From Glycomyces arizonensis DSM 44726 (lineage in GTDB: Bacteria; Actinomycetota; Actinomycetes; Mycobacteriales; Micromonosporaceae): a stretch of 64,000 nucleotides of DNA. Location of the stretch: NCBI RefSeq assembly GCF_000482705.1, contig NZ_KI519475.1, positions 1 to 64,000 on the forward strand. Direction: 5' to 3'. The translations under genes were made by a program, and so were the position numbers. Of this stretch, positions 11,621-62,037 are shown one piece after another; positions within the stretch are counted from its first letter, which is position 1; the number at the start of each line of letters is the position of its first letter. The notes beneath the pieces were generated by a model. It saw only the letters and a program-made list of their open reading frames with translations. It was not told the DNA's origin and made no database searches.

Positions 11621-11660
11621 TTATATCCTATAATCCGGTTATAGGTTATAGGTTATAGGT
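11621..11660. repeat. AT-rich palindromic element, locus A
   Basis: TTATATCCTATAA (11621-11633) is followed by three exact tandem copies of the heptamer TTATAGG (11639-11659). The surrounding DNA is about 70 percent GC, so the composition change is sharp. The 13-base core recurs at 20832 and, as its reverse complement, at 20857. Confidence 0.85.
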
Positions 11661-20772: not shown

Positions 20773-20869
20773 ATATAGGATATATCCTATATTCCGACGC
20801 TGAGACTCATGTCTTATAACATGTATGGCGGTTATATCCTATAACCTTTGCTTGGGTTATAGGATATAA
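20773..20869. repeat. AT-rich palindromic element, locus B
   Basis: Three structures occur in 97 bases: the perfect 20-base palindrome ATATAGGATATATCCTATAT (20773-20792), TTATATCCTATAA (20832-20844), and its reverse complement TTATAGGATATAA (20857-20869). The latter two form a 15-base-pair hairpin with loop TTTGCTTG. It lies between the murB stop (20874, minus strand) and the chitinase promoter. There is no T-tract, so I do not call it a terminator. Confidence 0.85.
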
Positions 20870-22730: not shown

Positions 22731-22941
22731 CCGCCGTGACGCAGATAACGGTTCCATATATTTTCGCTTGAAATCGGACAAACGTACGCCGCCCACTTGG
22801 CAAAGGCATTCAGATCCCGCTAGGCTCAGCACACGCTCCGCGGCGGCCACGCCTGCGCAGCGCACATGCCGCAGCGCAGGGCCGCGCTCCAGCGAGGTCC
22901 TTCCTGCAGCCTGTACAAGCACGCCTTTTACAACGGATCGT

Positions 22942-22959
22942 CTGGCACGTGCCTGCCAG
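22942..22959 (+). promoter_or_regulatory. hairpin in the msiK leader
   Basis: CTGGCA-CGTGCC-TGCCAG forms a 6-base stem 15 bases before the msiK ATG, with AAAGGA just after it. A conserved RNA called the msiK motif is known in leaders of actinobacterial msiK genes; I cannot confirm that this is it. The 22731-22974 stretch has no gene. Confidence 0.35.
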
Positions 22960-22974
22960 TGAAAGGACCTCATC

Positions 22975-48795: not shown

Positions 48796-48865
48796 TTATA
48801 TCCTATACAACATGTCTTATATGTTATAGATTATAAGATATAAGATATAAGATATAGGGTATAGG
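48796..48865. repeat. AT-rich heptamer/palindrome element, locus C
   Basis: TTATATCCTATAC (48796-48808) is followed by TTATATGTTATAG, then an AT-rich track of 7-base period (ATAAGAT three times, ATAGGGT, ATAGG; 48833-48865). It lies 36 bases upstream of recR, in its leader or promoter. It shares the TATATCCTATA core with loci A and B and the seven-base periodicity with A. Confidence 0.85.
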
Positions 48866-59505: not shown

Positions 59506-60684
<1,179 letters not shown>

Positions 60685-60998
60685 TGTAGAGTCCGCTCCA
60701 GTAGCTAGTCTTCTTTGACCGGGTTGCCTGGCCCGACCCGCTCCCCTCGGGTGGTCCCCGCGGCCGCGAAGCGGCGGCCGGGGTCCGCGGGCCGGAAAAT
60801 CTGCTCAGGTGCCCGTTAGCGCAGCGTAACGCGCGGACGGCCGCCGCGGCCGCCTGACGGTGCACCGATGTGACGAGATCGAAGATCTCACGGTGCGTAT
60901 GCGCCGCCGTGAGACCACGGAAAACGCCGTGCCGGACGGCGGTGGAGGAGTTTGGGAGGCGCAGGCCACGGCGGAGCGATTCCGCACACCGACGCACC

Positions 60999-61230
60999 TT
61001 ATAGCTTATAACCTCCGCAGTGCCGGAGTGTCCGTGCGTGTGGTGCCTCGGGCTGTTTTATAGCCTATAACTTCTACCGCGGAGAAGCGCGTTCGCGCGG
61101 ACCGTTCTGGCAAAGGTTATAGCCTATAATTTTCATTGCGCGACAATCGGGCGCAGAGCATCTCATGGCTATTTTATAGCCTATAATCTCGCTTGTGAAG
61201 GCGCGCAGTGCGCAGGTTATACCTATAACC
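60999..61230. repeat. five AT-rich palindromes at regular spacing, locus D
   Basis: TTATAGCTTATAA (60999), TTATAGCCTATAA (61058, 61117, 61174) and a one-base-shorter TTATACCTATAA (61217). Start-to-start spacing is 59, 59, 57 and 43. The 12 bases right of each core are also alike, roughly YYTCYGCTGTGG, so the true repeat is about 25 bases in one orientation. Locus B's copy at 20832 has a similar right flank (CCTTTGCTTGG). The intervening DNA is GC-rich and unrelated. The whole gene-free interval is 60685-61572. Confidence 0.88.
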
Positions 61231-61281
61231 TCTGCTGTGGCGGCATGGCCTTGCGCGTTCGTGTTCCCGGCGCAAATGAGC

Positions 61282-61404
61282 GGGGACCGGACGCACCCCT
61301 CAGGCGTCCGGTCCCCTTTTCGTCGGGAATCAAGCCCACCCCTCAAAGGCTTGATCCCCTTTAGGCACGATGCCCTATCGCCACCCCTCAATCGACAGGG
61401 CATC
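61282..61404 (+). ncRNA. three-hairpin structured RNA with conserved C-rich loops
   Basis: Hairpin 1 (61282-61316): 13-base stem GGGGACCGGACGC, loop ACCCCTCAG, then TTTT. Hairpin 2 (61325-61359): stem with ATCAAGCC/GGCTTGAT, loop CACCCCTCAAA, then TTT. Hairpin 3 (61369-61404): stem GATGCCCT/AGGGCATC, loop CCACCCCTCAAT. The stems share no sequence but the loops share ACCCCTCA. This indicates selection for structure and loop. C-rich loops recall the actinobacterial 6C RNA, which I cannot confirm here. Strand is chosen from the T-runs. Confidence 0.6.
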
Positions 61405-61572
61405 GGCAGTTTGTGGCATAGCTCTATGAGCCGTGCTATACCGAATGCGATGGCTCTCGCCTCGCTCTCCGATGCGTCTCGCGCCGTTTTGCACTGCGTC
61501 CGACACTATTAAGAACGAGGCGGGTCGCGGGCCGGTTACGGGGCTGGCAAAAGATTTTTTCCAAACGGCGTA

Positions 61573-62037
61573 TCAGCTGGTGGAGGCCGTGTGTTCCCTT
61601 GCGGCGTCACCCGTTTCGGTGCCGCCGACGTGCTCGGCGACCCATTCGGCGATCACCTGAGTCGAGGCCCCGGGGCCGAAAGTCGCGGCCACCCCGGCTT
61701 CGCGCAGCGCCTTCGCGTCCTCGTCGGGAATGATGCCGCCGCCGAATACGACGATGTCGCGCGCATCGGCCTCGTCGAGTAGTCGCAGCACTCGCGGGAA
61801 CAGCGTCATATGCGCGCCCGAGAGAATGCTCAATCCGATCGCGTCGGCGTCTTCGGCCAGCGCCGTCGCCACGACCTGCTCGGGGGAATTGTGCAGACCG
61901 GTGTAGATCACTTCCATGCCCGCGTCGCGCAGCGCGCGGGCCACGACCTTCGCGCCGCGGTCGTGCCCGTCGAGCCCGACCTTCGCCACGACCACCCGGA
62001 CGGGCGCGCCGTTGTGGGGCGCGCGCGATGCAGACAT
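61573..62037 (-). CDS. cobalamin-binding domain protein (methylmalonyl-CoA mutase C-terminal type)
   Basis: A 154-residue stand-alone B12-binding domain. [20 protein letters not shown] contains the DxHxxG cobalamin ligand motif (DGHDRG). [38 protein letters not shown] and [20 protein letters not shown] complete the Rossmann-like fold. ATG 62035-62037 follows GAGGAGG. Such small subunits pair with separate mutase large subunits (isobutyryl-, ethylmalonyl- or methylmalonyl-CoA mutases), none of which is in the window. Confidence 0.9.

Follow-up and report, generated by a model that had tools for sequence, protein, structure and literature searches.

A predicted multi-hairpin RNA with a sigma-BldN-type promoter and loops complementary to the bldN leader in Glycomyces and its relatives

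The sRNAs RybB and MicA of E. coli are driven by sigma-E and act mainly against envelope mRNAs, and DsrA activates rpoS by freeing a hidden ribosome-binding site. TwoAYGGAY and CsrB/RsmZ have a multi-hairpin structure with a shared purine-rich loop motif, and protein sponges typically carry the same loop several times over. The 6C RNA reportedly binds mRNAs through C-rich loops, going by the title of a 2019 paper by Mai et al. The name and taxa of the TwoAYGGAY motif are tabulated in the consulted part of PMC2864571. As for sigma factors, BldN is described in an excerpt of PMC4255298 as a developmental sigma factor of morphologically complex actinomycetes, and a portion of PMC2375139 gives CGTAACN16CGTTGA as the sequence that it recognises.

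Here we describe a hairpin array in a window of 64,000 nucleotides, the whole stretch of Glycomyces arizonensis DNA that was analysed. Comparison with related loci reveals on which strand the predicted RNA is read, how it is structured, that its promoter is conserved, and that its loops are complementary to a conserved site in the bldN leader. Based on this comparison, a trans-acting sRNA made by sigma-BldN probably pairs with the ribosome-binding region of bldN and so feeds back on BldN synthesis. In the open literature searched, a body that excludes most subscription papers, no such RNA or circuit is described. The RNA would be a family absent from Rfam, and all 37 host-family genomes sampled carry the element. 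If the proposal is true, it would provide a feedback circuit open to direct testing in bacteria that include many antibiotic producers, with the unusual design of an sRNA loop that resembles a Shine-Dalgarno (SD) sequence.

Strand, structure and promoter of the hairpin array

On the plus strand the array consists of three inverted repeats, at the positions of hairpins 1, 2 and 3 in Table 1, each arranged around the octamer ACCCCTCA. The octamer has three copies in the window, every one inside the array; at least three copies were also obtained in 23 of 100 shuffles, and the copy number by itself is not rare. That three octamers are each looped by an unrelated stem is not chance, which the initial annotation had already called unlikely. 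That annotation placed three hairpins with one conserved loop on the plus strand and gave them stems of 13, about 11 and 11 bp. The hairpins are real and conserved and their stems are indeed unrelated, but the strand was wrong: a plus-strand reading leaves A-C mismatches in the second and third stems, whereas the minus-strand stems are complete, with 13, 12 and 13 bp including G-U pairs. The folding energy of minus-strand 61275-61505 is -118 kcal/mol (z -7.26), which none of 200 shuffles equalled.

The strand assignment was derived from two alignments, A1 (15 of the 23 three-hairpin loci) and A2 (14 two-hairpin loci), in which the non-Watson-Crick stem cells on the minus strand comprise 63 G-U, 0 A-C and 3 others; the same 63 G-U cells become A-C mismatches if read on the plus strand. 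Since the strand-telling cells stand at 63 G-U against 0 A-C, the RNA strand is the minus strand, and the aligned loci point to a conserved multi-hairpin RNA read from it. Its loops are therefore the G-rich UGAGGGGU and not ACCCCUCA. These loops are SD-like and would pair with C-rich sites, unlike the anti-SD loops of 6C. The earlier suggestion of a CCUC loop acting as an anti-SD was right to link the loop with ribosome-binding sites and mistaken about the strand.

A third alignment, A3, consists of 31 sequences: L023, L025 and 29 taken from the 36 distinct elements that occur in the 112 loci of the matches listed; seven three-hairpin Glycomyces rows are left out of it. Standard pairs make up 99.8%, 99.5% and 99.4% of the stem cells in A1, A2 and A3, respectively, and ten pairs in each alignment show two-sided changes. 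The observed pairing, the number of two-sided pairs and the covariation score were reached by 0 of 500 shuffles; the pairing, whose loss in homologues had been named at the outset as a sign against the array, is retained. In hairpin 1, two-sided changes fall on 10/13 and 9/13 pairs in two-hairpin loci and on 4/13 in three-hairpin loci. A peptide encoded on the RNA strand was thought unlikely because linker lengths, as seen in the alignments, differ among genera.

Table 1. Coordinates of the predicted sRNA gene, its elements and its neighbours in the window
Feature	Position	Strand	Remarks
-35 element CGTAAC of the putative sRNA promoter	61535..61540	-	conserved in 30/30 loci and in 111/112 further loci (matches listed)
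-10 element CGTTCT	61512..61517	-	17 nt from the -35 element; CGTTGA in 98/111 further loci (matches listed)
Predicted sRNA, ~225 nt	61282..61506	-	supported by the fold of 61275-61505 minus
Hairpin 3, first in the RNA	61368..61405	-	13 bp, 12-nt loop AUUGAGGGGUGG
Hairpin 2	61325..61359	-	12 bp, loop UUUGAGGGGUG; two-sided changes in 6/12 pairs
Hairpin 1, last in the RNA	61282..61316	-	13 bp, 9-nt loop CUGAGGGGU
sucC (presumed), neighbour	59506..60684	-	same strand as the sRNA in this window, the other strand in most relatives
Cobalamin-binding (B12-domain) protein gene (presumed), other neighbour	61573..62031	-	

The start of the sRNA, near 61504-61506, was deduced from the -10 element, and its 3' end was taken as the end of hairpin 1, an uncertain placement. 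Hairpin 1 is GC-rich and lacks a T-tract. Across the 112 loci in the matches listed, the T content of the 14 nt beyond the array is 3.8 both on the RNA side and on the opposite side, so there is no T enrichment past the array. The T-runs after the hairpins from which multiple termination products had been suggested are TTTT and TTT on the plus strand only, and such products find no support. A terminator scan found no signature at the array; its sole match, 60941-60925 minus, is some 340 nt 3' of it, and 0.9 matches are expected by chance. A sigma-70-like match (61199-61171 minus) was also seen downstream of the RNA.

All of 30 loci have GTAAC-N15-18-CGTT 5' of the array on the RNA strand. Scanning the genome collection with the hairpin pattern gave at least 119 further loci. 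Hairpin 3 is found in 112 of these, and the seven loci with neither hairpin 3 nor the promoter were set aside as chance. Among the matches listed, 111 of the 112 carry CGTWAC-N16/17-CGTT upstream on the RNA strand (106 with an N16 spacer, 98 with CGTTGA and 108 with CGTAAC), and the remaining locus, L101, reads CGTCAC-N16-CGTTGA by eye. Away from the sRNA, the background of CGTWAC-N15-17-CGTT in the same loci is 17 sites in 1.56 Mb, counting both strands (matches listed). In the window a single such site exists on either strand, 61512-61540 minus; with CGTAAC-N17-CGTTCT it is a variant of the sigma-BldN motif, and CGTAAC-N17-CGTTGT, next to the host bldN, is another. The 5' region of the RNA past the -10 element (TGTCGGAGCGC) is conserved too.

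The host BldN orthologue has 6dxo_A as its best PDB match (E 3.6e-64). Using the conserved part of BldN as the query in 24 genomes, we found bldN orthologues in 15 of the 16 family genomes tested, the exception (G026) being 69% complete, and in all four tested genomes of f13, a group outside the family that carries a one-hairpin form. In 19 of 21 bldN loci, a promoter site of this type follows the conserved bldN domain at a distance of 22-484 nt. According to the consulted part of PMC4255298, a BldN-dependent rsbN promoter is located just downstream of bldN in S. venezuelae, and the gene next to bldN in our loci would be rsbN. Together with motif conservation, this suggests that the sRNA is transcribed from a sigma-BldN promoter. 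The genes 3' of perfect CGTAAC-N15-17-CGTTGA matches in five genomes revealed no clear regulon.

Distribution and surroundings of the RNA

Every one of the 37 genomes sampled from the host's family matched the element at E 1.1e-7 or better; 24 genomes of other families yielded 16 weak matches (E 0.0017 or worse), and eight had none. Among the matches listed, it also occurs in Micromonospora, Actinoplanes, Dactylosporangium and Catellatospora, which would be members of the host's family. All 22 Glycomyces genomes and genus g13 (L024) have three hairpins, hairpin 2 being present in these two groups, while two hairpins occur in the other 14 family genera read; hairpin 3 is common to both forms. 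A search of the order matched 61 of 298 genomes, 54 from the host's family, four from f13 and three from f15, and none of the 20 genomes listed among the 237 non-matching ones is a family member. In the four f13 genomes (L081, L082, L084, L085) a one-hairpin homologue has the same promoter type, read by eye as CGTTAC (three) or CGTCAC (one), a 16-nt spacer and then CGTT, and sucC lies nearby on the opposite strand. The f15 matches L086 and L087 proved not homologous when read and L083 was ambiguous, and second weak matches within G000, G013 and G253 (L088-L090) were judged unrelated. At the level of the class, 7 of 394 genomes matched at E <= 0.01, three of them from the host's family; the other four were unconvincing on reading. 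In one of these four, L258, a single hairpin bears a similar GAGGGG loop, and the 160 nt that were read contain no such promoter. Genomes G040 and G050 have bldN-like genes, and the order search did not find the RNA in either.

The neighbours of the array in the window are genes that we take, from their sequence features, to be sucC and a cobalamin-binding (B12-domain) protein gene. An AT-rich palindrome, TTATAGCCTATAA, forms arrays at 60999-61231, 11621-11658, 20832-20869 and 48796-48843, and the copies beside the sRNA are about 58 bp apart. Allowing at most one mismatch, it has 81 forward and 79 reverse matches in the host genome, whereas a search of three other Glycomyces genomes gave none and G024 gave one; it is possibly a species-specific dispersed repeat or operator. 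The window also contains an msiK RNA (RF01747) at 22916-22974 on the plus strand (57 bits).

The bldN leader site and the proposed circuit

Asking whether the RNA can act on its own sigma factor, we counted six motif strings in 21 bldN loci. ACCCCTC has 16 copies in 14 of these loci, against two of its reversal CTCCCCA, and ACCCCT has 22 against 10 of TCCCCA; CCCCTC shows no excess over its reversal (26 vs 28). Fifteen of the 16 ACCCCTC copies are upstream of the bldN domain, and 14 lie just 5' of a strong ribosome-binding site in the arrangement ACCCCTC(A/T/G)-N3/4-GAGGAGG-N5/6-GTG, the last spacer being 8 in one case. In the family as a whole, (A/T)CCCCTC(A/T/G), mostly ACCCCUCA, is located 3-4 nt upstream of GAGGAGG in 35 of 35 readable bldN leaders, a set that excludes G006, where the contig begins inside bldN, and G026, where no bldN was found. 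The host copy is at G000:C5:141941-141948. The longest Watson-Crick run between a leader and the sRNA loop of the same genome is at least 8 nt in 33/35 and at least 7 nt in 35/35; for the G032 leader, ACCCCTCG, the CGAGGGGU loop matches best. ACCCCTC-N1-6-GAGG-N5-11-RTG does not occur in 2.86 Mb, counting both strands, of other loci that had been obtained without a target pattern.

The GTG that follows the site is in frame with BldN in 21/21 readable Glycomyces leaders and also in G033, G034, G025 and G028. In ten other genera (L291, L293-L298, L300-L302) it opens an ORF of 24-56 codons upstream of bldN; in nine genera the stop of this ORF and the likely bldN start overlap, and in one the ORF ends 4 nt ahead of that start. 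With GTG either in frame with bldN or opening a coupled leader ORF, the ribosome-binding site beside the motif would control bldN either way. Six genomes outside the family, including four of f13 with the one-hairpin RNA, lack the site, and no CCCCTC is found within 1500 nt upstream of the bldN domain in 4/4 f13 genomes; the bldN target is therefore not universal, and the target of the f13 RNA must differ. A wider target pattern, CACCCCTC..GGAG..ATG, gave 35 matches against 28 for the reversed octamer in ten genomes, no clear excess, and among 29 translated products of the 35 matches no two were alike at E 1e-3 and no orthologues were shared. This pattern is blind to bldN because it requires ATG and the bldN start is GTG.

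By sequence, then, a conserved exposed loop seed is complementary to a conserved site in the bldN mRNA. Because loop and site both vary little, there is almost no compensatory evidence between them, and conservation of the CCUC could serve only its pairing with the SD in cis. Single-sequence folds of the leaders, for which a 5' end was assumed, usually pair the CCUC of the site with the GAGG of the SD. If the site is kept open, mean SD openness goes up from 0.16 to 0.45, with a rise above 0.1 in 27 of 35 leaders; in the other eight, the SD gains no more than 0.1. When a longer stretch including promoter sequence is folded (34 distinct leaders), the rise is smaller, from 0.16 to 0.37. In an alignment of leaders from 12 genera, an extra 5'-terminal hairpin shows a few two-sided changes, and the CCUC-GAGG pairing was not seen in the consensus fold of these 12 leaders.

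We infer transcription, pairing in the cell and the sign of regulation from these observations. The minus strand of 61282-61506 would be transcribed from the sigma-BldN promoter as a trans-acting small RNA, each of whose two or three hairpins would expose the same loop, UGAGGGGU. These loops may pair with ACCCCUCA, 3-4 nt 5' of GAGGAGG in the bldN mRNA leader. The site would serve bldN directly in Glycomyces, and in Micromonospora-type genera it would start a short leader ORF with a stop that overlaps the likely start of bldN or lies next to it. In this way the sRNA would feed back on the synthesis of the sigma factor that makes it. Because CCUC masks GAGG in the predicted folds, and a loop binding CCCCUC would free the SD, activation by opening of the site is slightly favoured over repression. 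A positive loop between RNA and sigma factor, in which SD-like loops capture the masking ACCCCUCA, free the bldN ribosome-binding site and amplify BldN, is a tentative proposal, and the number of loops (two or three) may then act as a gain setting.

Alternative readings and comparison with known systems

Orientation bears on whether the array is a gene of its own. Among the 106 loci reaching sucC in the matches listed, RNA and sucC share a strand in 12, each of which has three hairpins, and lie on opposite strands in 94; L023-L025 have the RNA on the sucC strand, and the promoter moves along with the array. Since orientation to sucC differs between lineages and the promoter moves with the array, the pattern argues for an autonomous sRNA gene and fits an independent RNA gene, not a sucC leader. 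A cis-regulatory leader of sucC is very improbable: although RNA and sucC share one strand in Glycomyces and lie 170-1479 nt apart in those 106 loci, sucC is on the other strand in 94 of them, the sRNA has a promoter of its own, and about 600 nt separate array and sucC in the window. The sucC RNA (RF01759) has no match in the window or in 60690-61600. Equally hard to credit is a plus-strand sRNA of the 6C kind with C-rich loops. The plus strand does offer ACCCCTCA loops, but the G-U against A-C count places the RNA on the minus strand, as does the conserved promoter, and RF01066 is absent both at the gathering cut-off in the window and at E up to 10 in 60690-61600. Membership of 6C was rejected, and in 10 of the 11 tested non-Glycomyces-type genera with the array RNA, 6C scores above cut-off as a gene of its own. 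No Rfam family matches the array, in keeping with the new class that the initial annotation had held possible.

It is unlikely, though less so, that the loops of a sigma-BldN-driven sRNA bind a protein, the anti-SD of the 16S rRNA or 6C by its C-rich loops, with the bldN-leader match secondary. Repeated identical loops fit a protein sponge, and GGGG is able to pair with 6C C-tracts; besides the 10/11 genera, 6C is above cut-off in 3/3 tested f13 genomes, and loop duplexes with four 6C loop pieces reach -8.2 to -18.3 kcal/mol, values that carry no shuffle control. Pairing with the 16S anti-SD was nevertheless rejected, as 13-20% of shuffled loops do as well. 6C was not found in 22/22 Glycomyces genomes (G000-G021), for which reason a 6C sponge is unlikely there, and a laxer-filter retest of five Glycomyces gave none above cut-off and one weak match (E 0.087). 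CACCCC occurs in 5 of the 14 6C matches listed, one of the 14 having no readable sequence; on both grounds a 6C sponge was rejected as the main role. Closer to our proposal, the same sRNA and target could act as negative feedback, pairing beside the SD blocking the 30S subunit and shutting off bldN translation. This is rather doubtful, and a little more so than the positive loop. Placed about 17-24 nt 5' of the start codon, the site falls within the usual 30S footprint, and complementarity of at least 7 nt in 35/35 leaders fits blocking as well, but the site pairs with the SD in cis and holding it open lifts mean SD openness, which fits activation better.

Feedback of the sRNA on bldN, our preferred reading, can be set beside several described systems. 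Like 6C (RF01066), the array RNA is a candidate actinobacterial sRNA whose hairpins, two in 6C, repeat one kind of base in their loops; it differs in that its loops are G-rich, the opposite polarity, and in its locus, and it has no Rfam match. As with RybB and MicA of the E. coli sigma-E system, an alternative sigma factor would make an sRNA that closes a loop, but those sRNAs target mainly envelope mRNAs, whereas the predicted target here is the sigma factor's own mRNA. With TwoAYGGAY and CsrB/RsmZ the RNA shares several hairpins with one purine-rich loop motif, although its UGAGGGGU loop is without AYGGAY or GGA, a comparison made by motif only. DsrA on rpoS offers the parallel in mechanism, namely pairing with the strand that masks the Shine-Dalgarno sequence, as proposed here. 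The array RNA differs in that its loop is itself SD-like, and the likeness is one of mechanism, with no homology claimed.
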